64,000 bases of DNA, from contig NZ_CP048117.1 in the NCBI RefSeq assembly GCF_000469135.2, positions 797,001-861,000 on the forward strand, given 5' to 3'. Below are positions 28,681 to 40,534 of this stretch, piece after piece. Numbering within the stretch: the first letter of the stretch is position 1; each line of letters begins with the position of its first letter. The notes under the pieces are model-generated. The model ran no database searches. It was not told the origin of the DNA and saw only the letters and a program-made list of their open reading frames with translations. The stretch comes from Bacillus sp. SB49. Its GTDB lineage: Bacteria; Bacillota; Bacilli; Bacillales; Halobacillaceae. Made by a program: the position numbers and the translations under genes.

Positions 28681-29202
28681 TTAATCTTCGAAAAGTGGAG
28701 TAGTAGCTTCCAGACAGGTGATGCTGCAGACACAATCCAAATCTACAGTAATGCACACCCCTGTAGCCAATAGGTTACGGACACTGGTCGTAGGGAAGTA
28801 GTCACAAACAGTATCTCCACCGAGATCTAATGGGTTACCACTAGCATCTGCAGGAAGCAGCAATTCAAGCTTCACACAGTTCTTTTTACCATCAACGAAT
28901 TTCTTCGCTTTGAAGATCGGGCTTTGAACGCAGTCAAGGTACGTTCCGCCCCCTCCAGGAAGGCGGCGTCTGACAACGCTGCTTCCGATGAACGGTTTAC
29001 AATCTTTACAGTAAAGAATAAACGGAACAGTCGTAGGTCCATTACCGTTTGATTCCGGAGACAACAGGTCTCTGATGGAACGCTCACAGCTTACATCGCA
29101 GCAGCGATCCCTGCCGGCAACCTCCTCCTGTGCAGCGATGATTTTCTTGATGACATCACGTACACATCCGCTATCTTTACCACTAGAATGACAAGAGCTC
29201 AT
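28681..29202 (-). CDS. Spore coat protein of the CotY/CotZ family
   Basis: 173 residues with 14 cysteines, notably CCDVSC (34-39), YCKDC (64-68) and a C-terminal CITVDLDCVCSITCLE. Family blocks: ERSIRDLLSP, VPFILYCKDCKPFIG and FKAKKFVDGKKNCVKLELLLP. CotY/CotZ build the disulfide-linked crust or outermost coat of Bacillus spores. AAGGAGAG precedes the ATG. On the minus strand a CATAGACTG near 29240 loosely resembles a sigma-K -10. Confirms that the organism is an endospore former; CotY versus CotZ cannot be separated by eye. Confidence 0.92.
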   Translation of the reverse strand: MSSCHSSGKDSGCVRDVIKKIIAAQEEVAGRDRCCDVSCERSIRDLLSPESNGNGPTTVPFILYCKDCKPFIGSSVVRRRLPGGGGTYLDCVQSPIFKAKKFVDGKKNCVKLELLLPADASGNPLDLGGDTVCDYFPTTSVRNLLATGVCITVDLDCVCSITCLEATTPLFED

Positions 29203-29497: not shown

Positions 29498-29526
29498 TTG
29501 AATTTTCTAAAAAATAGGTATAAAAT
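29498..29526 (+). promoter_or_regulatory. Promoter of the acyl-CoA operon
   Basis: TTGAAT, 17-base spacer, TAAAAT; start codon of the first gene lies 65 bases downstream. Confidence 0.65.
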
Positions 29527-29531
29527 GGTTA

Positions 29532-29551
29532 CATACTGAACGGTTAGTATG
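29532..29551 (+). promoter_or_regulatory. TetR-type operator at the acyl-CoA operon promoter
   Basis: CATACTGAACGGTTAGTATG is an imperfect palindrome with 6-bp perfect outer arms (CATACT / AGTATG), placed at the predicted transcription start. Its form is typical of TetR-family repressors controlling acyl-CoA genes. The regulator is not in the window. Confidence 0.6.
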
Positions 29552-29562
29552 TTATTCAGAAA

Positions 29563-29576
29563 TGTAAGCGGTTTAA
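29563..29576 (+). promoter_or_regulatory. cre-like site in the acyl-CoA operon leader
   Basis: TGTAAGCGGTTTAA fits TGWNANCGNTNWCA except for A in place of C at position 13. Downstream of the start point, the usual place for CcpA repression. Confidence 0.4.
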
Positions 29577-29590
29577 AAGGAGGTTGAACG

Positions 29591-30370
29591 ATGCACGTTA
29601 TGGAATTATTTGATTTAAGCGGGAAGACCGCCATCGTTACAGGAGGCGGGCGCGGGCTTGGGGAGCAGATTGCTGCAGGCCTGGCGGAAGCAGGAGCGAA
29701 CATCGTCGTATGTTCGAGAAAGCAGGACGCCTGCGAGACGGTTGCTTCTTCTTTGAAAGAAAAAACTGGTGTAAAGACGCTGGGAATGGCTTGTGATGTC
29801 ACGGACCCTTCCCAGGTGGAGGAAGTCATTGCTGCAGTAAAAGAGCAATTTGGAACGATTGATATACTCGTTAACAACAGTGGAGCAACGTGGGGGGCGC
29901 CTACACTGGAAATGCCGGTGGAAGCTTTTCAGAAAGTGATGAACGTCAATGTCACAGGGACGTTTCTAATGTCACAAAAGGCCGGGGAAGTAATGATGGA
30001 GCAAGGGTACGGGAAGATCATCAATATTGCCTCCGTGGCCGGACTCGGCGGTGCGGACCCGCGCTTCATGGAAACGGTAGGGTACAACGCAAGTAAAGGT
30101 GCCGTCATCACTTTCACAAAAGATTTGGCTGTTAAATGGGGTTCGTCCAATATTCAGGTGAATGCACTGGCCCCGGGGTTCTTCCCGACTAAGATGTCCA
30201 AGGGAGTATTGGATCAGGGAGGGGAGTTCATTTTAGACCGGACCCCACTCGGGCGCTTCGGTTCAGAATCCGACCTTAAAGGGGCGGCACTGTTCCTCGC
30301 ATCCAAAGCATCTGATTACGTCACCGGTGACGTGCTTGTCGTAGATGGCGGGATGCACGCATCCTGTTAA
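29591..30370 (+). CDS. SDR-family 3-oxoacyl/hydroxyacyl oxidoreductase
   Basis: 259 residues. Classical short-chain dehydrogenase: cofactor loop VTGGGRGLGEQIAAGLAEAG, NNSG (residue about 98), catalytic Ser in INIASVAGLGG, YNASKGA (Tyr/Lys), and C-terminal LASKASDYVTGDVLVVDGGMHASC. First gene of an eight-gene operon, so it probably acts on a hydroxy- or oxo-acyl substrate. Its position beside a kinase and acyl-CoA dehydrogenase recalls LvaD of levulinate catabolism, but many SDRs look alike. Start ATG 29591 with AAGGAGG seven bases upstream. Confidence 0.85.
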   Translation: MHVMELFDLSGKTAIVTGGGRGLGEQIAAGLAEAGANIVVCSRKQDACETVASSLKEKTGVKTLGMACDVTDPSQVEEVIAAVKEQFGTIDILVNNSGATWGAPTLEMPVEAFQKVMNVNVTGTFLMSQKAGEVMMEQGYGKIINIASVAGLGGADPRFMETVGYNASKGAVITFTKDLAVKWGSSNIQVNALAPGFFPTKMSKGVLDQGGEFILDRTPLGRFGSESDLKGAALFLASKASDYVTGDVLVVDGGMHASC

Positions 30371-30392
30371 TTAATGAAGGAGGATGATAGAG

Positions 30393-31259
30393 ATGGAACG
30401 ATTGACGGTCGTAGGAGCAGGGAGTATGGGACATCAGATCGCCATGCTTGGAGCTCTGGCAGGGTATGAAACGAACCTTCATGATAAAGAGGAATCATCG
30501 CTTCATAAAGCCGAAGAGAAGTTAAAAGGAATTATGGATAAGTGGATCGATAAAGGGAAAATTTCACCGGAAGACTCCCGGGAAGCATTCGGACGTCTTC
30601 ATTACACGACGGACTTAAGAGAAGCGGCCGGCCAGGCGGATATCGTCATAGAAGCCGTCGTTGAAAAGCTGGAAGTGAAGCGGGAAGTGTTCGGACAGCT
30701 GGACTCGATCGTACCCTCCCATACGATTCTTGCTACGAATTCTTCTACTATTGTCAGCTCGCTGATTGCAGATGTGACGACGCGCCCGGATAAGGTTTGC
30801 AATATGCACTTCTTCTTTCCGCCGCTGGTTATGGACTGTGTGGAAGTGGTGAAAGGGGAACACACCTCTGATTCCACAGTGGAAACAGCCATGGAGGTCT
30901 GCAAACGCATGAACAGAACAGGTGTGTTGCTGGAGAAGGAAATATCCGGATTCATTGCAAATCGTATCTTGTTCGCTGTTCAAAGAGAAGCGATGCACCT
31001 TTACGAAGAAGGCTATGCCGACTTTAAGGATATTGATAAAATCGTCAAAAAAGCGTTGAGTCATCCACTAGGTCCGTTTGAACTGATGGACTTGTCCGGA
31101 ATTGATGTCGGTTATTATGTCATGCAGCAGCATTACGAAGAAACCGGAGATCCGGCGGTCAAACCTTCTAAGACGTTGGAGGAGAAACTGAAGGCGGGAG
31201 AGTTGGGAAGAAAGACCGGTAAAGGATTCTACCAGTATGATTCCACCGTAAAGAGTTGA
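30393..31259 (+). CDS. 3-hydroxyacyl-CoA dehydrogenase
   Basis: 288 residues, the single-domain (HbdA/PaaH) size. NAD-binding VVGAGSMGHQIAMLGALAGYETNLHD, VIEAVVEKLEVKREVF, ATNSSTIVSS, the catalytic His in NMHFFFPPLVMDCVEVV, and C-terminal EISGFIANRILFAVQREAMHLYEEGYADFKDIDKIVKKALSHPLGPFELMDLSGIDV. Oxidises L-3-hydroxyacyl-CoA to 3-oxoacyl-CoA. GGAGG lies nine bases before the ATG at 30393; an ATG at 30384 is too close to it. Second gene of the operon, 22 bases after the SDR. Confidence 0.92.
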   Translation: MERLTVVGAGSMGHQIAMLGALAGYETNLHDKEESSLHKAEEKLKGIMDKWIDKGKISPEDSREAFGRLHYTTDLREAAGQADIVIEAVVEKLEVKREVFGQLDSIVPSHTILATNSSTIVSSLIADVTTRPDKVCNMHFFFPPLVMDCVEVVKGEHTSDSTVETAMEVCKRMNRTGVLLEKEISGFIANRILFAVQREAMHLYEEGYADFKDIDKIVKKALSHPLGPFELMDLSGIDVGYYVMQQHYEETGDPAVKPSKTLEEKLKAGELGRKTGKGFYQYDSTVKS

Positions 31260-31270
31260 GGAGGGAGGAG

Positions 31271-31672
31271 ATGCATGAGTGGGAAGTGACCATCCGATTT
31301 TGTGAAACCGATTTGCTTGGACATGTGAACAACAGCAACTACTTCATCTATATGGAAGATGCAAGGGTCCAGTTTTTTTCAGACTGTGATCTCGTCGGGG
31401 AGCGCTGGAATTTCGTATTAGCATCAGCGACGTGCGATTTTCTCAAGCAGGTACACTTCGGCCAAACGCTCCTTCTTCGCAGCCGTATCGTAAAAATAGG
31501 GAGCTCAAGCTTTCATTTGGAACAGGAAATGGTAGATAAGGATACGGAAGAGACGGCAGCAAAAGGGCTTTCGATTGTTGTCCAATACGATTTCGACAAT
31601 GGAAAAAGTCTACCGCTGTCGGAAGCTCAGCGCAGCAATTTGGAAAAATATCGATACGTAATGAGTGAATAG
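31271..31672 (+). CDS. Hotdog-fold acyl-CoA thioesterase (4HBT family)
   Basis: 133 residues. The ETDLLGHVNNSNYFIYMEDARVQFF segment carries the catalytic Asp and 4-hydroxybenzoyl-CoA thioesterase signature (D..GHVNN..Y). Likely hydrolyses an acyl-CoA intermediate or relieves CoA sequestration in this pathway. GAGGAGGG precedes the ATG at 31271, which overlaps nothing but lies only 11 bases after the previous stop. Tightly coupled third gene of the operon. Confidence 0.88.
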   Translation: MHEWEVTIRFCETDLLGHVNNSNYFIYMEDARVQFFSDCDLVGERWNFVLASATCDFLKQVHFGQTLLLRSRIVKIGSSSFHLEQEMVDKDTEETAAKGLSIVVQYDFDNGKSLPLSEAQRSNLEKYRYVMSE

Positions 31673-31687
31673 AGTGGGGGCGTGGAT

Positions 31688-32743
31688 ATGAAAAGAGACA
31701 CACTTCCTGTCCGTTCGGGAGAGGAACTGGAAATCGAGCGGATCGAGCAGTGGCTTAGAGACCGCATGGAACTGCCTTCAGGAGAACTGGCCGTCCGCCA
31801 ATTTGGAACCGGCCATTCGAATCTGACTTACGAGCTTTCCATTCGTGACGAGTGGAAAGCCGTGCTGCGTCGTCCTCCGCTTGGTCCAGTGGCTCCGAAA
31901 GCCCATGATATGGAAAGAGAGTTTGCCGTGCTTCAGGCTCTCCATCCCTTTTTTCCTTTGGCACCTGAACCGTATATGTATGATTCCGGAGAAGTCATCG
32001 GGAGTCCCTTCTTCTTGATGGAAAGAAGGGAAGGAGTTGTTTTTGATTCCAGTTTTCCTGAAGGGATAAAACCGTCCCGGGAGTTAGGTCGTGCTCTGTC
32101 GGAAACGATGGTGGACCGGCTCGTAGAACTGCATGCTATTCCTTACAAAGAAACGGCTTTGAAGGACATGGTAAAGCCGGAGGGTTTTATGGAAAGACAG
32201 GTACACGGCTGGATCAAACGCTATGAGAAAGCACGCACGGATGATGTTGTATCCGGGGAAAGATTAATGAAGTGGCTGATTAGTCATATCCCAGATTCTG
32301 ATAAAGCTGCCATTATCCATTATGATTACAAGCTGAATAATGCCATGTTCCAGAAGGATGATCCATCCAGAATGGTCGGTCTATTTGACTGGGAAATGAC
32401 AACGGTCGGTGATCCTCTCGCTGATCTTGGAGCGGCGATGGGGTACTGGATTCAATCGGATGATCCGGAATCGTTGAAAACCGGACTTGGTAAACCTTCT
32501 GTTACGATTCAGGACGGTTTCTATACAAGGGAACAGTTCATATCCAGGTATGCGGAGAAAAGCGGCCGGGATGTGTCCAACGTCCATGTGTACGTAACCT
32601 TTGCTTATTTCAAACTGGCAGGAATCATTCAGCAGATTTATTACCGTTATAAGCGGGGCCAGACGGACGACCCCCGATTTGAGGGAATGAACGTGTTCGT
32701 CAATCATTTGATCGAACATGCAGAAGAAACGGCGGGATTATAA
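31688..32743 (+). CDS. APH-type phosphotransferase (ACAD10/11- and LvaA-like kinase)
   Basis: 351 residues. Kinase landmarks: RQFGTGHSNLTYEL nucleotide loop (38-50), VLRRPPLGPVAPKAHDMEREF, the catalytic loop IIHYDYKLNNAMF with Asp213 and Asn218, and LFDWEMTTVGDPLADLG with the metal Asp234. This is the pattern of the kinase domains fused to acyl-CoA dehydrogenases in ACAD10/11 and of LvaA, which phosphorylate 4-hydroxyacyl-CoA so that the hydroxyl can leave as phosphate. The fourth gene of an acyl-CoA operon, fitting that role; substrate unproven. Start ATG 31688 with GGGGG seven bases upstream. Confidence 0.82.
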   Translation: MKRDTLPVRSGEELEIERIEQWLRDRMELPSGELAVRQFGTGHSNLTYELSIRDEWKAVLRRPPLGPVAPKAHDMEREFAVLQALHPFFPLAPEPYMYDSGEVIGSPFFLMERREGVVFDSSFPEGIKPSRELGRALSETMVDRLVELHAIPYKETALKDMVKPEGFMERQVHGWIKRYEKARTDDVVSGERLMKWLISHIPDSDKAAIIHYDYKLNNAMFQKDDPSRMVGLFDWEMTTVGDPLADLGAAMGYWIQSDDPESLKTGLGKPSVTIQDGFYTREQFISRYAEKSGRDVSNVHVYVTFAYFKLAGIIQQIYYRYKRGQTDDPRFEGMNVFVNHLIEHAEETAGL

Positions 32744-32744
32744 T

Positions 32745-33491
32745 ATGGGAAAAATCCAAGTAATTTTTAAGAAAGAGGATATCCGCCCGGATGATCTGGA
32801 AGGGAAAGTGGCCGTTGTTTTCGATGTCTTGTTTGCGACCTCTACCATAACGGCGGCTCTGGCTGACGGGGCTGCTGCTGTCATCCCGGTATTTGATGCA
32901 GAACAGGCGAGAAAGAAGGCGGCTGTTATGAAAGAGCCGTTTTTGCTTGCCGGAGAAGATCAAGGAAAAGGAATAGAGGGCTTCCATCCACCGCTTCGGA
33001 CTCATTTAAAGCCACATATCAAGAATCATCATCTCATTTTGTCCACAACCAACGGTACCGTCGCCCTGCACCGAGCCCGGAGAGCAAAGCGTCTCTATGC
33101 TGCTTCCCTATTAAATAATCCAGCTATGGCTGAGCATCTTGTCAGGTTACATGGAGGGGATACAATCGTTATCATCTGCTCCGGGTCAAGCGGTCACTTT
33201 ACGCTTGAAGATTTCTACGGTGCCGGGAGTCTTATAACCTATATGGAGCAGGAAGGAGTATGGACGCTTTCCGACGCTGCCATCGCTGCCCGCGATTTTT
33301 ACAACAGTAAGGGAACTGCGAGAGCAGAGGTGCTTTTGGAGTGTCGTATCGGACAAATGCTGTTATCGGAAGGGTTAAATCCGGAAGAAGTGGAGTTTGT
33401 GGCTGAAGAAGGTCATTTTGATACGATTCCTACTTATGATGCGGAAGAAGCTGTGTTGAAGGAGGGAAGACATGCCGCCAGTAAAATATAA
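32745..33491 (+). CDS. Divergent ComB (2-phosphosulfolactate phosphatase) family protein
   Basis: 248 residues. ComB-family blocks in order: VVFDVLFATSTITAALADGAAAVIPV (22-49), LAGEDQGKGIEGF (69-80), LSTTNGTVAL (99-108), and IICSGSSGHFTLEDFYGAGSLI (143-164). ComB hydrolyses 2-phosphosulfolactate in coenzyme M and spore sulfolactate synthesis. Here Phe stands where I recall Arg in DVLRATST, and the GNSP motif after the GF is missing, so substrate may differ. No ComA/sulfolactate genes are nearby. Starts two bases after the kinase stop and overlaps the next gene by 20 bases, so it is an integral operon member. Confidence 0.75.
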   Translation: MGKIQVIFKKEDIRPDDLEGKVAVVFDVLFATSTITAALADGAAAVIPVFDAEQARKKAAVMKEPFLLAGEDQGKGIEGFHPPLRTHLKPHIKNHHLILSTTNGTVALHRARRAKRLYAASLLNNPAMAEHLVRLHGGDTIVIICSGSSGHFTLEDFYGAGSLITYMEQEGVWTLSDAAIAARDFYNSKGTARAEVLLECRIGQMLLSEGLNPEEVEFVAEEGHFDTIPTYDAEEAVLKEGRHAASKI

Positions 33492-35244
33492 AGTAGCCGG
33501 CGGGGAATTTCTTGTACGTGACCTGCCGCTGGATGTTGTTTTCACACCGGAAGAACGAACAGAAGAACACAAAATGATTGGTGACACCGCTCGACAATAT
33601 ATTACCCGGGAAATACACCCAAATAGAAAGAGAATAGAAAGTGGAGATTATGCTTTTGTCACCTCCAAAATGAAAGAAGCCGGAGAGTTAGGGCTGCTTG
33701 CCCATAGTATTCCCGAACGGTTTGGCGGTCTGGGTCTGGATAAAATGAGTAAAGGTATCGTCGGGGAAGCGCTGGGCAGCGGTGGTGGATACAGTGTCGC
33801 TCATTCGAACCATACGTGCATCGCAACCTTGCCGATCACTTATTTCGGGTCGGATGAGCAGAAAAGGAACTATCTTCCGAAACTTGCCAGTGGAGAGTAT
33901 ATTGGAGCATACTGCCTGACAGAACCGGAGGCGGGATCTGATGCGCTGGCGGCTAAAACGACAGCGGTCATGAATGAAGAGAAGTCCCACTACTTATTGA
34001 ACGGTACAAAAATATATATCACCAACGCTTCCTTTTCCGATACGTTCATTGTGTACGCAAAAGTGGATGGGAAGGACTTCACTGCTTTCATCGTAGAGAA
34101 GGATTTCCCTGGATTATCCATTGGTCCTGAGGAAGAGAAGATGGGAATTAAAGGGTCTTCCACCTGCTCGGTCGTGATGGAGGATTGTGAGGTTCCGGTC
34201 GAGAATGTACTTGGAGAAATCGGCAAAGGACATCTGATTGCATTAAACGTATTGAATTTAGGGAGGTTCAATTTAGGTTTCGCTGCTCTCGGTGCAGCGA
34301 AGCAGGCCCTGCAGCTGGCTGTTCAGCATACTTCGGAGCGGAAGCAGTTTGGAAGAGCGATTTCGGCATTCCCTGCTACTAAAGAAAAATTGGCCAGGAT
34401 GGCCGGCGATATCTTTGCTTCTGAATCGCTTTTGTATCGGACAGCTGGTCATATAGAATCTGCTCTTGGGTATTTGGATGAAGCAGCGGAGCCTTCCGAG
34501 ACAGCTAGAGCGATGAACGAGCATAAGATGGAAGCGGCGATTTGTAAAGTTGCGGGATCCGAGACCTTGGATGCCGTTGTGGATGAAGCGCTCCAGCTTC
34601 ATGGGGGTGCCGGTTTTATTAAAGAATATCCGATTGAACAAATGTACAGGGATGCGCGCATCAATCGAATTTTCGAAGGAACGAACGAGATTAACCGTCT
34701 TCTGATCGCCGGATCTTTCTTGAAATCAGCAGAAAAGGAGAGGACAAGCTTCCAATCTATTCTGGAACAAGCAGAATACTCTTTAAAGAATAGAGGTTAT
34801 ATGAGGTCTACGGGAGAGCTTGGTGATGCAGAAGAAGCGGTAGCCTTATACAGGGATTTATTTCTTGTGACGGTTGGTTCGGCTGTCCGTAAATATGGAA
34901 AGTCCCTCTCTGAAAATCAGGAAATAATGATGGCTCTTGCTGATCTTGCAATGGAATTATATCGAACGCAATCGGTTGTCTGGCGTGTCAAGAAGTCCTT
35001 ACAAAGACAACATAAGGACGCTTCTTGGCAGAAGAAGCTTGTCTATTTGATAGTGGAGGACGCCAACCTGCGCATTCAGTCTTCCGTAATATTCCTTTTG
35101 TCGGACCTGCTGGAGGGAGAAGAAAGAGTTCATACACTCAGGAATGTCAGCGGGCTGTTAAGTGTGTATCACTGGCCGGATTCTATCCAAAGGAACAGGG
35201 AAATTGCAGAAGCGTTGCTTGAGTTCAGACAGTATCCAAACTAA
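33472..35244 (+). CDS. Acyl-CoA dehydrogenase, long (FadE/VLCAD-like) form
   Basis: 590 residues, close to B. subtilis FadE (YusJ, about 594). Acyl-CoA dehydrogenase core (about 30-410): AYCLTEPEAGSDALAAKTTA, KIYITNASFSDTFIVYAKVDG, RKQFGRAISAFPATKEKLA, ALQLHGGAGFIKEYPIEQMYRDARINRIFEGTNEINRLL with the base Glu in FEGTNE; then an extra helical C-terminal domain (about 430-590). FAD flavoprotein making trans-2-enoyl-CoA; in the LvaC/ACAD11 scheme such an enzyme also eliminates phosphate. GAAGGAGGG precedes the ATG. Electrons would pass to ETF, not encoded here. Confidence 0.93.
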   Translation: MPPVKYKVAGGEFLVRDLPLDVVFTPEERTEEHKMIGDTARQYITREIHPNRKRIESGDYAFVTSKMKEAGELGLLAHSIPERFGGLGLDKMSKGIVGEALGSGGGYSVAHSNHTCIATLPITYFGSDEQKRNYLPKLASGEYIGAYCLTEPEAGSDALAAKTTAVMNEEKSHYLLNGTKIYITNASFSDTFIVYAKVDGKDFTAFIVEKDFPGLSIGPEEEKMGIKGSSTCSVVMEDCEVPVENVLGEIGKGHLIALNVLNLGRFNLGFAALGAAKQALQLAVQHTSERKQFGRAISAFPATKEKLARMAGDIFASESLLYRTAGHIESALGYLDEAAEPSETARAMNEHKMEAAICKVAGSETLDAVVDEALQLHGGAGFIKEYPIEQMYRDARINRIFEGTNEINRLLIAGSFLKSAEKERTSFQSILEQAEYSLKNRGYMRSTGELGDAEEAVALYRDLFLVTVGSAVRKYGKSLSENQEIMMALADLAMELYRTQSVVWRVKKSLQRQHKDASWQKKLVYLIVEDANLRIQSSVIFLLSDLLEGEERVHTLRNVSGLLSVYHWPDSIQRNREIAEALLEFRQYPN

Positions 35245-35261
35245 TGAAGGAGTTGGAGAAA

Positions 35262-36044
35262 ATGAGAGGTAATGAACATTTGACTGTACAGGTGAACGGA
35301 CCGATTATGCATTGTGTGCTAAACCGACCGGAAGCGCTTAATGCCTTTTCCGACCAAATGATTTCCGGTTTAATGAAGGCTTTGAAGGAAGCGGAAGAAT
35401 CAGAAGATGTGAAGGCAGTCGTCCTATCAGGTGCCGGTAGATCTTTCTCCGCCGGAGGTGATGTGAAGGGTATGGGGCAGGCGAGTGCTGCTAAGCTGTA
35501 TGATCATGTGGGGAAATTGAATCAATTGATATTGGCTATCAAAGCACTTCCGAAGCCGGTTATAGCTGTCGTTCACGGATATGCAGCCGGTGCCGGTTTC
35601 AACCTTGCTCTCGCTTGCGATCAAATTCTTGCAGCAGAAAAGAGCAAGTTCGTCATGAGCTTCGCTCAAGTCGGCCTTATCTCTGATGGTGGCGGTCATT
35701 ATTTCTTAACGAAAGTACTTGGTCCATATCGTGCCAAAGAGTTACTGTTCCGCGCAGAACCGATCAACGTGGAGCAGGCATATGACTGGGGTATGGTAAA
35801 CCGGATTCTTCCAGTCGATGATCTTGAGGGCGCGGCCATGGAATACGCGCTTGAAATAGCCAACGGGCCTGCACGGGCAATCGGCATGATTAAAAGGGTG
35901 GTCGACCAGGCGGATCAATCCGATCTTGCGGCCATTCTCGAGCAGGAAAGAATCTCACAAACGATGATGATCGCAACCGAAGATCATAAAGAAGGCGTCG
36001 AAGCGTTCAAGAATAAACGCAAGCCGGAATTTGCAGGGAGGTGA
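35262..36044 (+). CDS. Enoyl-CoA hydratase/isomerase family protein
   Basis: 260 residues, crotonase fold. VLNRPEALNAFSDQMISGLMKALKEAEES, VLSGAGRSFSAGGDVKGMG (oxyanion-hole and CoA-binding region), KPVIAVVHGYAAGAGFNLALACDQILA and FAQVGLISDGGGHYFLTKVLGPYRAKELLFRAEPI. The second catalytic position carries Asp (ISDGGG), typical of PaaG/PaaF-like isomerases and hydratases. Hydrates or isomerises the enoyl-CoA from the preceding enzyme. AAGGAG is nine bases before the ATG at 35262. Last codons abut the next gene. Confidence 0.88.
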   Translation: MRGNEHLTVQVNGPIMHCVLNRPEALNAFSDQMISGLMKALKEAEESEDVKAVVLSGAGRSFSAGGDVKGMGQASAAKLYDHVGKLNQLILAIKALPKPVIAVVHGYAAGAGFNLALACDQILAAEKSKFVMSFAQVGLISDGGGHYFLTKVLGPYRAKELLFRAEPINVEQAYDWGMVNRILPVDDLEGAAMEYALEIANGPARAIGMIKRVVDQADQSDLAAILEQERISQTMMIATEDHKEGVEAFKNKRKPEFAGR

Positions 36045-36049
36045 ACGAA

Positions 36050-37024
36050 ATGAAAGCCATACAATTCAAAGCATACGGAGGTCCGTCTGTCCTTGAGGAG
36101 GTAACCATTGACGTACCAACATTGGAGAAGGACGAGGTGCTGCTGAAAGTGGAGGCTGTCGGTGTGAATTACGCCGATACTGCGAGACGGGAAGGAGCCT
36201 ATGTCGTACCTACCCCGCTCCCTTTCATACCTGGAGCTGAGGTAGCCGGTGTTGTTGCAGGCACGGGTTCAGATGCCTCTCGTTTTAAAGAAGGGGACAG
36301 GGTGGTTACTTTAATTGGATCAGGTGGATATGCAGAGTTTGTGAAAACGAAGGAGAGCACCTTAATTCCAATCCCGGACGGAGTCGACTACGAAACAGCT
36401 GTCGCTTTACCACTTCAGGGACTGACTGCTTACCATATTCTAACGACGATGGGACGGATGGAAAAAGGAGAAACCGTCCTTATTCATGCCGCGGCCGGCG
36501 GTGTTGGTTCTCTTGCGGTTCAGCTCGCCAAGCATTTTGGAGCGGGAAACGTTATTGCTACGGCAAGTACAGAAGAGAAACTGCTTCTTGCCAGGGACCT
36601 TGGTGCCGATCATGTCATTAACTATACACATGAGCATTGGCGGGAAGACGTTATGGATGTTACGGGAGGTAAAGGAGTTGACGTTGCACTGGAGATGGCA
36701 GGTGGAGAAGTTTTTCTTGAGACGGTGAAGTGTATGAGATCTTTCGGCCGCGTCGTCGTTTATGGAGTGGCAAGCGGTAATCCTGCGACGATGTATCCAT
36801 CTGGACTCATGAACCGTAACCTCTCTGTCATCGGATTCTTTCTTCCTCAAATCATGAAGAAGCCGGTCTTGTTTGAGAAGAGTCTTGACCATCTTCTACA
36901 GTTAGTGAATACCGGAGATTTAAAGCTGACTATCGGCGGAGTATTCAAGCTTGAGGAAGCAGCGCGTGTCCACGAGATGATGCAGGGGAGACAAACGACA
37001 GGTAAAATTGTATTAAAACCTTGA
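36050..37024 (+). CDS. Zinc-free MDR-family NADPH:quinone (enoyl) reductase
   Basis: 324 residues. QOR-type medium-chain reductase: GroES-like half with VGVNYADTARREGAY and PFIPGAEVAGVV, then Rossmann VLIHAAAGGVGSLAVQLAKHFGAGNVIATASTEEKLLLARDLGADHVINY. No zinc ligands seen. Such enzymes reduce quinones or the double bond of enones/enoyl-CoA with NADPH. As the last gene of the acyl-CoA operon it may saturate an enoyl intermediate. GGGAGGTGAACGAA leads to the ATG at 36050, five bases after the hydratase stop. Terminator follows. Confidence 0.87.
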   Translation: MKAIQFKAYGGPSVLEEVTIDVPTLEKDEVLLKVEAVGVNYADTARREGAYVVPTPLPFIPGAEVAGVVAGTGSDASRFKEGDRVVTLIGSGGYAEFVKTKESTLIPIPDGVDYETAVALPLQGLTAYHILTTMGRMEKGETVLIHAAAGGVGSLAVQLAKHFGAGNVIATASTEEKLLLARDLGADHVINYTHEHWREDVMDVTGGKGVDVALEMAGGEVFLETVKCMRSFGRVVVYGVASGNPATMYPSGLMNRNLSVIGFFLPQIMKKPVLFEKSLDHLLQLVNTGDLKLTIGGVFKLEEAARVHEMMQGRQTTGKIVLKP

Positions 37025-37028
37025 AGAG

Positions 37029-37060
37029 AGAAGCAGGGGAACCTGCTTCTTTTTTTGTTT
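37029..37060 (+). terminator. Terminator of the acyl-CoA operon
   Basis: AGAAGCAGG / CCTGCTTCT hairpin, GGAA loop, then TTTTTTTGTTT. Confidence 0.93.
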
Positions 37061-37710: not shown

Positions 37711-37747
37711 AAAAAACCGCCTGGGGACCAACCCAGGCGGTTTTTTT
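37711..37747. terminator. Bidirectional terminator
   Basis: AAAAAACCGCCTGGG / CCCAGGCGGTTTTTT stem between converging genes. Confidence 0.93.
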
Positions 37748-38534
37748 ATAGAATGGCAGTTGATTCGTTTTTAATATCTGTAATGAACATGTGGCCGGGA
37801 GCGTGTGTAATCATGATATCGGGTTTTTGCTGCATGGCCACCGCTTGCGGGGTAACACCGCAGGCCCAAAAAACCGGTACTTCATCACGGTGTATGGTAA
37901 CAGACTCTCCAAAGTCGGGAGAATTTAAGTCTTTAATTCCGATTTTGCCAGGATCACCTATGTGTACAGGAGCGCCGTGAACGTTTGGAAATCGGCTTGT
38001 TACTTGAACGGCCCGGATTGCGTCCGCCTGTTTCATCGGCCGCATGCTGACAACCATTGGACCATGAAAGTTACCAGCCGGAACGCACTCGATGGAGGTT
38101 CGGTACATTGGTACATTACGATTTTCCTCGATATGACGGACGGGGATGTTGTTTTCAAGCAGTGCCTGTTCAAATGTGAAACTGCATCCAAGCAGAAACC
38201 CGACCATGTCCTGTGTCCAGGCATTTGTAATGTCCGTGGTTACCTCGGACAACACGCCGTCCTTATATATATGATACTTAGGAAGGTCTTTCCTAAGATC
38301 GGCTCCCGGAGCGGTTAACAACGGGGCGAAGCTGCCCGGGTCTGTAACATCAAGAACCGGGCACGGTTTAGGGTTTCTTTGGCAAAATACAAGAAAATCA
38401 AAGGCCAGTTCCCGGGGGACAACGGCAAGGTTTCCCTGTACAAAACCGTTGGCCATTCCGGCGGTAGGGCCTTTCCAACTACCTTCCCGGATCATTTCTC
38501 GCGCCTCTGAAGGGGACAGTATAGATGGTTCCAA
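37746..38534 (-). CDS. ycsI: YcsI/DUF1445 family putative hydro-lyase (D-glutamate cyclase-like)
   Basis: 262 residues. DUF1445 blocks: SPSEAREMIREGSWKGPTAGMANGFVQGNLAVVPRELAFDFLVFCQRNPKPCPVLDVTDPGS, LGCSFTFEQALLENNIPVRHIEENRNVPMYRTSIEC, FHGPMVVSMRP, HGAPVHIGDPGKIGI and VFWACGVTPQAVAMQQKPDIMITHAPGHMFITDI. A homologue is D-glutamate cyclase, which makes 5-oxo-D-proline, fitting the 5-oxoprolinase cluster here. Start taken as TTG 38534 (AGGAG eight bases upstream); GTG at 38543 is the alternative. Last gene of the pxp cluster. Confidence 0.88.
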   Translation of the reverse strand: MEPSILSPSEAREMIREGSWKGPTAGMANGFVQGNLAVVPRELAFDFLVFCQRNPKPCPVLDVTDPGSFAPLLTAPGADLRKDLPKYHIYKDGVLSEVTTDITNAWTQDMVGFLLGCSFTFEQALLENNIPVRHIEENRNVPMYRTSIECVPAGNFHGPMVVSMRPMKQADAIRAVQVTSRFPNVHGAPVHIGDPGKIGIKDLNSPDFGESVTIHRDEVPVFWACGVTPQAVAMQQKPDIMITHAPGHMFITDIKNESTAIL

Positions 38535-38545
38535 TGACAACACTC

Positions 38546-39739
38546 CTACTGGAATAATTTAGGTATACCTTGGAACAGGGACAAGCCTCCCATGTAAGCC
38601 ATGGCTATAACGATAATGACGCCAAACACGGTAAGCCATATTGGGTGTTTGTAGTCCTTACCGACAATTTTTCGGTTGTTTGCTGCAACCAGCATGACGC
38701 CTAAAGCGATCGGCAGAATCAAACCATTTAAAGATCCGACAAGTATTAAGATTTTTACCGGTTGTCCGATAGAAACGAATACGCTTGTAGAAATGATGAT
38801 AAAGGCAACGATAAACCACTTATGATATTTTTCGATGGTTTTACTGAATGTCCGTATAAAGGAAACGGAGGTATACGCAGCGCCTACGACAGAAGTTACC
38901 GCGGCTGCCCACATGATAACACCGAATATTTTGTAACCTACGTTTCCAGCTGCCGCCTGAAATACGGAAGCAGGAGGGTTGTCCGGGTTTAAAGTGAAAC
39001 CTGATGCGATAACGCCGAGAGATGCGAGGAAGAGAAAGATCCTCATGACGGATGCGATACCGATTGCTGAAACGGAGCTTTTCGTAACTTCACCGAGAGA
39101 TTCTTTCCCTTTGACGCCCGCATCAAGGAGACGGTGGCCGCCGGCAAACGTGATATAGCCGCCGACCGTACCTCCGACGAGGGTTGTAATAGCCAGGAAA
39201 TCAATCGTATCCGGTACAAATGTCTTCGTGATCGCTTCTCCTACCGGTGGTTCTGCTGAGAACATGACAAAGATCGTCAAGGCAATCATGACGAACCCGG
39301 CAATCTGCGCGAATCGGTCCATGACTTTTCCAGCTTCCCGGACGAGAAAGACACCGACGGCAACGATTCCACTAAAGAGCGCCCCGAGTTCAGGAGATAT
39401 CCCGAAGAGTACGTTGGTTCCAAGTCCTGCACCGGCGATATTTCCGATGTTGAAGGCTAGACCACCGGCGACGATCAGTACGGATAAGAAAACACCGAGA
39501 CCTGGAACCAGACTGTTCGCTATGTCCTGTGCTGGTTTCTCGGCAATTGCAATAATGCGCCAAATATTGAGCTGGGCACCGATATCGATAATGATGGAAA
39601 TAAGGATGACAAATCCGAAACTTGCTGCTAATTGTTGAGTGAAATGCGTAGTCTGGGTAAGGAAACCGGGTCCGATAGCTGAGGTGGCCATCAAAAACGC
39701 GGCGCCTAATAGGAGACTTCTGTTTGATTGTTGTTTCAT
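38546..39739 (-). CDS. ycsG: NRAMP-family transporter (YcsG-like)
   Basis: 397 residues with 11 predicted membrane helices. NRAMP/SLC11-like core: SAIGPGFLTQTTHFTQQLAASFGFVILISIIIDIGAQLNIWRII (helix 1 region, with GPG as unwinding point but not the metal-binding DPGN). The first-helix motif differs from Mn2+ transporters, so a non-metal substrate is plausible, and the location between pxpA and ycsI suggests 5-oxoproline or a related compound. AAAGGAG precedes the ATG at 39739. Counterpart of B. subtilis ycsG by context. Confidence 0.85.
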   Translation of the reverse strand: MKQQSNRSLLLGAAFLMATSAIGPGFLTQTTHFTQQLAASFGFVILISIIIDIGAQLNIWRIIAIAEKPAQDIANSLVPGLGVFLSVLIVAGGLAFNIGNIAGAGLGTNVLFGISPELGALFSGIVAVGVFLVREAGKVMDRFAQIAGFVMIALTIFVMFSAEPPVGEAITKTFVPDTIDFLAITTLVGGTVGGYITFAGGHRLLDAGVKGKESLGEVTKSSVSAIGIASVMRIFLFLASLGVIASGFTLNPDNPPASVFQAAAGNVGYKIFGVIMWAAAVTSVVGAAYTSVSFIRTFSKTIEKYHKWFIVAFIIISTSVFVSIGQPVKILILVGSLNGLILPIALGVMLVAANNRKIVGKDYKHPIWLTVFGVIIVIAMAYMGGLSLFQGIPKLFQ

Positions 39740-39760
39740 GGAGCTGCTCCTTTCTGCTGC

Positions 39761-40534
39761 TTAAATAGTAATGAATTTTCCACTTGCCTGCAGTTTTATA
39801 TCTGATTCTTTCAATGCACCGGTAATGTACTTAGCAAATTCGACAGCATGGGCGCCATCTCCGTGAATGCAGATGGTTTGAGCTTGGATGTCAATATCCA
39901 CATTCTGCATTGTGTGCACTTTGTTTTCTTTAATCATGCGGATGACTTGATCCACCGCAAGTTTACGATCAGTGATCAAGGCATCCGGCAGCCTTCTTGA
40001 GGTAAGGCTGCCATCCTCTTGATACGTGCGGTCGGAGAATACTTCGCTCGCTGTTGGGAGGTTATATGTACGGCCTGCTGCAATCAGTTCGCTGCCAGCA
40101 AGGCCGTATAACAACAGCCCGGTATCTACATCCCTGACCGCTTTCGCAATTGCTTCTGCCAGTGTCTTATCTTTGGCTGCCATATTATACAGCGCCCCGT
40201 GCGGCTTCACGTGCTGCAATTTCTCACCTTCCGCATGAACAAAACCTTGAAGGGCACCGATTTGATAGACGACTAAATCATAAGCTTCTGCAGGAGAAAG
40301 GTCCATCGGTCGTCTTCCGAAGCCTTGAAGATCCGGCAGCCCTGGATGCGCCCCGATACCGACCCCGTTTGCTGCGGCTTTTTTAACTGTTTCTCTCATA
40401 GTCGAAGGGTCGCCTGCATGATAACCGCAGGCGATATTCGCTGATGTGACATAGGTTAGGATTTCTTCATCCTGCCCCATTTTATACGCTCCAAAGCTTT
40501 CTCCCATATCACAATTTAAGTCTACGATATGCAT
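39761..40534 (-). CDS. pxpA: 5-oxoprolinase subunit PxpA (LamB/YcsF)
   Basis: 257 residues. Unmistakable LamB/YcsF start [66 protein letters not shown], and [14 protein letters not shown], ending with [17 protein letters not shown]. With PxpB and PxpC it forms the ATP-dependent 5-oxoprolinase that opens pyroglutamate to glutamate. AAAGGGTGATCC precedes the ATG. Glutamate so recovered could join proline synthesis. Confidence 0.96.

Follow-up and report, generated by a model that had tools for sequence, protein, structure and literature searches.

An eight-gene acyl-CoA operon of Bacillus sp. SB49 as the probable kinase half of a dispersed 4-hydroxyacyl-CoA regulon

An eight-gene operon behind a palindrome

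Here we describe an acyl-CoA operon with a putative acyl-CoA kinase in Bacillus sp. SB49, located within a 64,000-nucleotide stretch of contig NZ_CP048117.1 (assembly GCF_000469135.2, positions 797,001 to 861,000 of the forward strand; hereafter the window). Eight open reading frames (ORFs) on the plus strand, occupying positions 29591-37024, are spaced by 13 bases or less or overlap, and look like one operon. An earlier note, made from the letters of the window, had recognised an eight-gene acyl-CoA operon with the motifs GTGHSN, HYDYKLNN and LFDWE in its kinase; all eight ORFs are present, their family calls hold in both Pfam and NCBIfam, and the three motifs are all found in the kinase. We suggest that the operon is probably the kinase half of a regulon for 4-hydroxyacyl-CoA catabolism that occupies four places in the host genome. 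Gene families, active-site residues, co-occurrence across genomes and a common palindrome are the observations behind this proposal, and the chemistry would follow by analogy with characterised systems. The features of the locus are as follows.

29498..29526, plus strand: sigma-70-like promoter site, TTGAAT-17-TAAAAT, with 9 of 12 consensus positions matched (a call by consensus alone)
29531..29552, plus strand: 22-bp palindrome ACATACTGAACGGTTAGTATGT directly after the -10 hexamer, presumed operator of a TetR-family protein
29591..30370, plus strand: short-chain dehydrogenase/reductase (SDR) oxidoreductase (Pfam, NCBIfam), with a possible LvaD-like role on 4-oxo/4-hydroxyacyl-CoA
30384..31259, plus strand: 3-hydroxyacyl-CoA dehydrogenase (HADH; Pfam, NCBIfam)
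31256..31672, plus strand: 4HBT thioesterase (Pfam, NCBIfam), alternative ATG start at 31271
31682..32743, plus strand: predicted ACAD11/LvaA-type acyl-CoA kinase (Pfam aminoglycoside phosphotransferase family, APH, PF01636; matches to sequences of solved structures)
32745..33491, plus strand: ComB-like phosphatase (PF04029) of a subfamily with DVLFAT replacing DVLRAT, alternative ATG at 32718
33472..35244, plus strand: conventional FadE/VLCAD-type acyl-CoA dehydrogenase (ACAD); catalytic Glu; phosphate-binding residues absent
35244..36044, plus strand: enoyl-CoA hydratase family protein (ECH; Pfam, NCBIfam)
36041..37024, plus strand: medium-chain dehydrogenase/reductase (MDR), PIG3-type (Pfam, NCBIfam)
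37022..37057, plus strand: terminator-like hairpin at the operon end (hairpin scan)

The start at 29498 proposed in the earlier note coincides with the -35 hexamer of the promoter-like site, and the operon end at 37024 is the stop codon of the MDR gene, sitting at the terminator-like hairpin. Promoter-like consensus sites number 14 in 8 kb against 8.9 expected from shuffles, which makes them weak evidence alone, and the promoter and terminator scans both returned somewhat more sites than shuffled sequence, so that each carries little weight by itself. The palindrome has a single match in the 64-kb window and none in 100 shuffles. Genes for a thiolase, an acyl-CoA ligase or an electron transfer flavoprotein (ETF) are not found among the eight genes of the operon.

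The kinase is of the ACAD11/LvaA type

The window kinase matches the kinase domain of ACAD11 (8v3v) over nearly its full length (E 7.5e-41, 144 bits, ~31% identity), whereas five of the six other APH (PF01636) proteins of the host genome, which were compared, reached E 4e-5 at best, one of them giving no match. An ordinary aminoglycoside or choline kinase was set aside on account of this far poorer matching of the APH paralogues, and the assignment of the kinase to the ACAD11/LvaA type in the earlier note is borne out. Among proteins of known structure the best match is 9o56 (453 bits; entered as an aminoglycoside phosphotransferase), followed by 3dxp (161 bits), which is likewise matched over almost the full length. 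An alignment of 24 kinases from Bacilli, Deinococcus and Proteobacteria shows no variation (24 of 24) at H213, D215 and N220 of the catalytic HxDxxxxN motif or at D236, W237 and E238 of the DWE motif, and HYD[YF]K[LFV]NN is present at all 81 kinase loci, comprising the window and the best 80 among 372 confirmed relatives.

A kinase tree was anchored on ACAD11, 3dxp and kinases lying beside ACAD11-type ACADs of other phyla, LvaA not being among these anchors. Its deep splits stayed open, with the APH rows of the host genome on branches 4.8 to 10 long; because the deep branching does not settle the matter, the family call rests on the pairwise matches. Judged by these, membership of the window kinase in the ACAD11/LvaA family holds as a sequence-based prediction, LvaA itself not being among the sequences compared.

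Two acyl-CoA dehydrogenases, one of them 2.05 Mb away

Substitutions in ACAD11 have shown that the enzyme needs R626, H634 and R637; the same paper describes the equivalents of these three residues and of D753 as features that ACAD10/11 have in common with LvaC and that conventional ACADs lack (PMC12440821). In the ACAD of the window operon, the places that R626, H634, R637 and D753 take in mouse ACAD11 are occupied by V, L, A and E, respectively, and the protein matches the FadE family with 732 bits (cut-off 600). The earlier note had cast this enzyme as the phosphate eliminase; being of FadE type and devoid of the four equivalents, it was rejected for that role on the residue comparison.

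An ACAD11-type ACAD is nevertheless encoded in the host genome, at C1:2879828-2881042, 2.05 Mb from the window operon. It keeps the equivalents of R626, R631, H634, R637 and D753, and is 78% identical to its counterpart at locus L008, which scores 507 bits against 4hr3 and 480 bits against human ACAD11 (2wbi). Among the 63 members of the ACAD11-type cluster, 62 contain RLGPGRIHHCMR, the exception being a 176-aa fragment. The locus reads, in order, ACAD, SDR, two MaoC-like genes (by eye), the ACAD11-type ACAD, SDR, thiolase and TetR, and continues with thioesterase, SDR, acyl-CoA ligase, a branched-chain-type ABC transporter (by eye), ACAD, thiolase and ECH. The window operon would therefore be missing a thiolase because a larger module is split in this genome, and the idea of a broken or unfinished pathway was rejected, as the missing thiolase and ligase genes sit at the ACAD11-type locus. 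The earlier statement that thiolase, ligase and ETF are lacking stands for the operon; it fails for the genome, where thiolases and ligases lie elsewhere behind the same palindrome.

For co-occurrence, 150 genomes were sampled from the host's order and searched with cut-offs of E 1e-70 for the kinase, E 1e-100 for the ACAD11-type ACAD, E 1e-80 for a lactonase and E 1e-50 for the ComB-like protein (the last two discussed below), weaker matches not being counted. The kinase is present in 70 of the 150 genomes and the ACAD11-type ACAD also in 70, and the two sets are identical. An ACAD11-type ACAD lies within 10 kb of 77 of the 82 kinase genes; the exceptions are those of G000 (the host), G006, and one each in G143, G045 and G133. 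Genome G006, of the same family as the host, has the same two-locus split with nearly the same gene order, and its kinase operon is without a FadE-type gene.

Conservation of the gene set around the kinase

Neighbours were counted at the 81 kinase loci in stretches of up to 10 kb on each side, some of them shortened by contig ends, and genes were grouped by sequence similarity, so that copies may be missed. With these provisos the partners of the window operon do recur, as a check suggested in the earlier note had asked: SDR at 63 loci, ComB-like gene at 59, MDR at 57, ECH at 53, HADH at 50, FadE-type ACAD at 49 and thioesterase at 47. Two further genes, both lacking from the window operon, are the ACAD11-type ACAD (61 of 81 loci) and a TetR gene (59 of 81), the former mostly placed just upstream of the SDR in relatives and the window being one of the 20 loci without it. 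The first-listed 20 kinase relatives (L008-L027) are all Halobacillus, at about 64-77% identity, which places the host in Halobacillus or near it.

The recurrence of the FadE-type ACAD near the kinase (49 of 81) is what would be expected if the operon were self-contained and its own dehydrogenase eliminated the phosphate. We regard this as very improbable, given the V/L/A/E replacements and a FadE family score (732 bits) well above the cut-off of 600. Furthermore, the FadE-type ACAD is not seen in 32 of the 81 kinase stretches, six Planococcus-group loci have only an ACAD11-type ACAD beside the kinase, and all 70 kinase genomes possess the ACAD11-type enzyme. A kinase operon working with an ACAD11-type eliminase encoded elsewhere is the reading followed below.

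Several variants of the locus were encountered. In Halobacillus hunanensis (L020:8600-13600) the order HADH, thioesterase, kinase, ComB-like, ECH, MDR is kept, with a palindrome 65 bases before HADH; SDR, FadE-type and ACAD11-type genes are not seen within the stretch examined. A second, divergent class of module, with adjoining ACAD, kinase and ComB-like genes, is represented by L134:4606-7598, L136:4841-7906 and L135:3657-6665. Its ACADs are 40-42% identical to the ACAD11 type and its kinases 40-46% identical to the window kinase; the ACADs have HAMR instead of HCMR and keep all five key residues.

Downstream of the kinase, a cytochrome-P450-like gene (by eye) is found at 11 of the 81 loci, in the Planococcus group (for example L038:11170-12372; the others are L033, L035, L039, L044, L047, L048, L053, L055, L064 and L082), six of the 11 showing only the ACAD11-type ACAD and the kinase. 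It is possible that the P450-like protein is a fatty acid hydroxylase making the 4-hydroxy substrate. A Bacilli-type cluster with the palindrome also occurs in L040, a record titled Pseudomonas sp. ISL-84, whose contig may be misnamed Bacillales DNA.

A palindrome common to the dispersed loci

When the host genome was scanned with up to 3 mismatches, the palindrome was found at five places and the reversed pattern at none:

Place 1: the window operon
Place 2: the ACAD11-type operon, upstream of its first ACAD
Place 3: the thioesterase-SDR-ligase-transporter operon, with 3 mismatches
Place 4: a carboxyltransferase followed by an acyl-CoA ligase
Place 5: a phosphotriesterase-like lactonase

Kinase, ACAD11-type ACAD, SDR and CoA ligase are all present in the host genome, split over loci that have the palindrome in common. 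At up to 4 mismatches, 105 sites were found in 77 of 83 stretches (75 of the 81 kinase loci, together with L098 and L099) and one in shuffled (mononucleotide) copies. All but about 15 of the 105 lie within 50 bases of a downstream gene start, mostly that of an ACAD11-type ACAD, SDR, HADH or kinase gene. The 19-base core of the palindrome (up to 1 mismatch) occurs in 63 of the 70 kinase genomes compared with 5 of the 80 others, and the reversed pattern in 3 of 150 (G076, G110 and G122). Only a single clear copy of the TetR gene of the ACAD11-type locus exists in the host genome, the next best being 32% identical, and it is relatives of this gene that lie near the kinase at the 59 loci mentioned above. 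The TetR-family repressor encoded at C1:2877196-2877759 is a candidate, and probably the one, to bind the palindrome.

At L112:10090-13666, lookalikes (by eye) of methylisocitrate lyase, 2-methylcitrate dehydratase and citrate/methylcitrate synthase run convergent to the carboxyltransferase-ligase pair of place 4, hinting that propionyl-CoA might be a product of the pathway.

This arrangement bears on a different reading, in which the genes would serve levulinate or another 4-oxo acid, as lva does in Pseudomonas putida, with the SDR reducing 4-oxoacyl-CoA and lactones being incidental. A carboxyltransferase and convergent methylcitrate-cycle-like genes at one palindrome site are as expected if propionyl-CoA is made, and the SDR lies near the kinase at 63 of 81 loci, LvaD having been assigned a 4-oxoacyl-CoA reducing role (PMC6692424). 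However, the FadE-type ACAD and the long-chain-type ligase matches suggest longer chains, and the palindrome is common to the lactonase, so that we consider a dedicated levulinate-type pathway unlikely and keep to 4-hydroxyacyl-CoA catabolism with more than one entry.

A lactonase under the same palindrome

The phosphotriesterase-like lactonase of the host (C1:2154318-2155340) scores 455 bits against both 3f4c and 3orw, and 393 bits against DR0930 (3fdk). Opening of gamma-alkyl lactones yields 4-hydroxy acids, the substrate class of the kinase/eliminase pair. Lactonases were found in 20 of the 150 genomes, all 20 kinase-positive, and in 8 of the 20 the gene lies within 20 kb of the kinase. Four of the 20 (G000, G146, G090 and G057) have the palindrome no more than 1.5 kb upstream of the lactonase; the site in G057 has 4 mismatches to the 22-mer yet a perfect 19-base core. 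Around the kinase in the 80 relatives, the lactonase lies within 10 kb in 6 and the carboxyltransferase in 7, which means that what the host genome scatters forms one cluster elsewhere. A paper of 2012 termed the precise biological functions of the phosphotriesterase-like lactonase family unknown, and reported members that act on gamma or delta lactones and not on acyl-homoserine lactones (AHLs; PMC3468530). In the host genome the lactonase gene has its presumed control site in common with a 4-hydroxyacyl-CoA module.

Since the family is known for AHL hydrolysis (PMC3468530), and since lactonase, acyl-CoA ligase and TetR repressor go together in the qsd genes of Rhodococcus (PMC6476934), one might suppose that the system disarms foreign AHLs and burns their acyl chain, the kinase acting on another hydroxyl. 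AHL opening, however, gives an N-acyl homoserine and calls for neither a 4-hydroxyacyl-CoA kinase nor an ACAD11-type eliminase, and 50 of the 70 kinase genomes are without such a lactonase at E 1e-80. We therefore give quorum quenching very little credence and take the lactonase, where present, as a possible supplier of 4-hydroxy acids.

A ComB-like protein as steady partner of the kinase

The earlier note had listed the ComB-like phosphatase as an addition outside known schemes. The gene is no stray but a steady partner of the kinase, being found in 62 of the 150 genomes, namely 61 of the 70 with the kinase and 1 of the 80 without (G124). The ComB-like genes number 65; a kinase gene is no more than 300 bp away from 52 of them, and another six have an ACAD11-type gene within 4 kb. 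The lone match in the kinase-free genome (G124:C2:13881-14606) has one TAA counted inside it.

The window protein matches PF04029 with 191.7 bits (cut-off 26.4), stays below the NCBIfam equivalog cut-off (best 140 against 330), and scores 102-104 bits against 1vr0 and 2yyv. Like the 2-phosphosulfolactate phosphatases ComB of known structure (1vr0, 2yyv and 2z0j), it belongs to this Pfam family and has the Asp, NGT and Glu-Asp motifs. In these three the motif reads DVLRAT, DMLRAT or DVIRAT (3 of 3), whereas 58 of the 59 copies linked to a kinase carry L, F or M in place of the Arg, one copy being off-pattern; the window copy has DVLFAT and keeps the Asp of the DVL motif as well as the NGT and Glu-Asp motifs.

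Nine of the 288 plasmid records that gave a kinase match were inspected, eight of them from outside Bacilli and one from Cytobacillus. In 4 of the eight non-Bacilli loci (Azospirillum, Pseudoalteromonas, Ideonella and Streptomyces) the gene immediately after the kinase encodes a histidine phosphatase, and no phosphatase is annotated beside the kinase in the other 4 (Deinococcus, Rhodococcus, Pseudosulfitobacter and Haladaptatus) in a gene table that is incomplete by its own account. No ComB-like gene was seen beside the kinase of the Cytobacillus plasmid, and all nine loci have an ACAD with an HxMR motif nearby. Phosphatase-like partners belonging to unrelated families are thus met repeatedly with this kinase. 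We infer that the ComB-like protein may serve to limit 4-phosphoacyl-CoA; as the HAD domain of ACAD10 restrains its kinase with negligible phosphatase activity (PMC11342911), this could happen without catalysis.

Proposed pathway and its relation to known systems

In the pathway that we propose, the TetR-family repressor would bind the 22-bp palindrome at its five sites. The lactonase would open gamma-lactones to 4-hydroxy acids, and a 4-oxo acid might enter alternatively by way of the SDR, if this works in the direction of reduction. After conversion to the CoA ester by an acyl-CoA ligase, the window kinase would phosphorylate the 4-hydroxyl and the distant ACAD11/LvaC-type ACAD would remove the phosphate to give a 2-enoyl-CoA, both steps being modelled on LvaA/LvaC and ACAD10/11; ECH, HADH, the FadE-type ACAD and thiolase could then run ordinary beta-oxidation. 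The ComB-like protein would probably limit the phosphoacyl-CoA, by hydrolysing either the ester or the free phospho-acid or by braking the kinase. The suggestion of a 4-hydroxyacyl-CoA pathway in the earlier note accordingly survives as the best reading of the locus, without the part that let the operon carry it alone, since the eliminase sits elsewhere. In vitro, bacterial homologues of each domain replaced ACAD10 domains on 4-hydroxyhexanoyl-CoA (PMC11342911).

A number of observations weigh against this proposal. With only ~31% identity between the window kinase and the kinase domain of ACAD11, the chain length and even the position of the hydroxyl could differ. Related genomes were counted as independent, and formal probabilities of co-occurrence would overstate the case. 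The palindrome core is absent from 7 kinase genomes (G002, G007, G009, G021, G035, G065 and G096) and present in 5 kinase-negative ones (G015, G031, G060, G066 and G083), and 9 kinase genomes are without a ComB-like gene. As to the lactonase, 16 of the 20 genomes have no palindrome within 1.5 kb upstream of it; in 8 of these the gene lies within 20 kb of the kinase, and the remaining 8 have neither palindrome nor kinase nearby, one of them (G093) having a site ~1.8 kb upstream. The family can also act on AHLs (PMC3468530). Finally, the lactonase occurs in only 20 of the 70 kinase genomes; in view of this minority, lactones cannot be the general input and other inputs must exist.

Among the closest known systems is lva of Pseudomonas putida and P. 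citronellolis, which likewise has separate genes for the kinase and the ACAD11-type ACAD, together with an SDR and an acyl-CoA ligase (PMC6692424). In P. citronellolis a histidine phosphatase gene lies near lvaA, and the cluster has no lvaB homologue (PMC6692424). Whereas lva is provided with the sigma54-type regulator LvaR, the Bacillota regulon has a TetR-type palindrome, and a ComB-like gene takes the place of the histidine phosphatase (P. citronellolis) or LvaB (P. putida), no search aimed at LvaB or LvaR having been made; the regulon includes, in addition, a lactonase and beta-oxidation genes and is split between loci. The same two chemical steps as in mammalian ACAD10 and ACAD11 would be expected, with the same active-site residues in the ACAD; here, however, the activities would reside in separate proteins, and the phosphatase-like partner is of an unrelated family. 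In Rhodococcus erythropolis, gamma-caprolactone induces the qsd genes (lactonase, acyl-CoA ligase and TetR repressor) and is assimilated through them, and the accessible part of that paper names no kinase or ACAD11-type enzyme for qsd, in contrast to the regulon described here (PMC6476934).

More tentatively, and at odds somewhat short of even, we propose that feeding the kinase/eliminase pair is the native job of the lactonases of this branch and that the ComB-like proteins constitute a new subfamily of phosphatases whose substrate is 4-phosphoacyl-CoA or the free acid. If this is true, a phosphatase-like brake has been recruited at least three times, as a ComB-like protein in Bacilli, a histidine phosphatase in Proteobacteria and Streptomyces, and a HAD domain in ACAD10. 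Among the papers listed in searches of an open-access library, none on ACAD or 4-hydroxy gene clusters mentioned the lactonase family and neither of two ACAD10/11 papers named Bacillus; within that scope the Bacillota regulon, the lactonase link and the ComB-like partner appear to be new.

The proposal assigns a native role that can be tested to lactonases investigated mostly as degraders of organophosphates and as quorum quenchers. The 4-hydroxy fatty acid pathway, described from mammals (ACAD10/11) and Pseudomonas, would be extended by it to Bacillota, the kinase/eliminase pair being present in 70 of 150 genomes of one order, and this pathway would let salt-loving Bacillaceae burn 4-hydroxy fatty acids, perhaps derived from lactones. 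The steady presence of a phosphatase-like partner of the kinase bears, in turn, on the purpose of the HAD domain of ACAD10.

Neighbouring genes

Upstream of the operon, a cysteine-rich ORF on the minus strand (window positions 28681-29202) is spore-coat-like by eye (CotZ/CotY-like), and 15 of the 83 grouped stretches contain a member of its cluster. Beside the operon at 37746-40534, also on the minus strand, lie genes resembling by eye LamB/YcsF (5-oxoprolinase PxpA-type), an NRAMP-like transporter and a DUF1445-type hydro-lyase.

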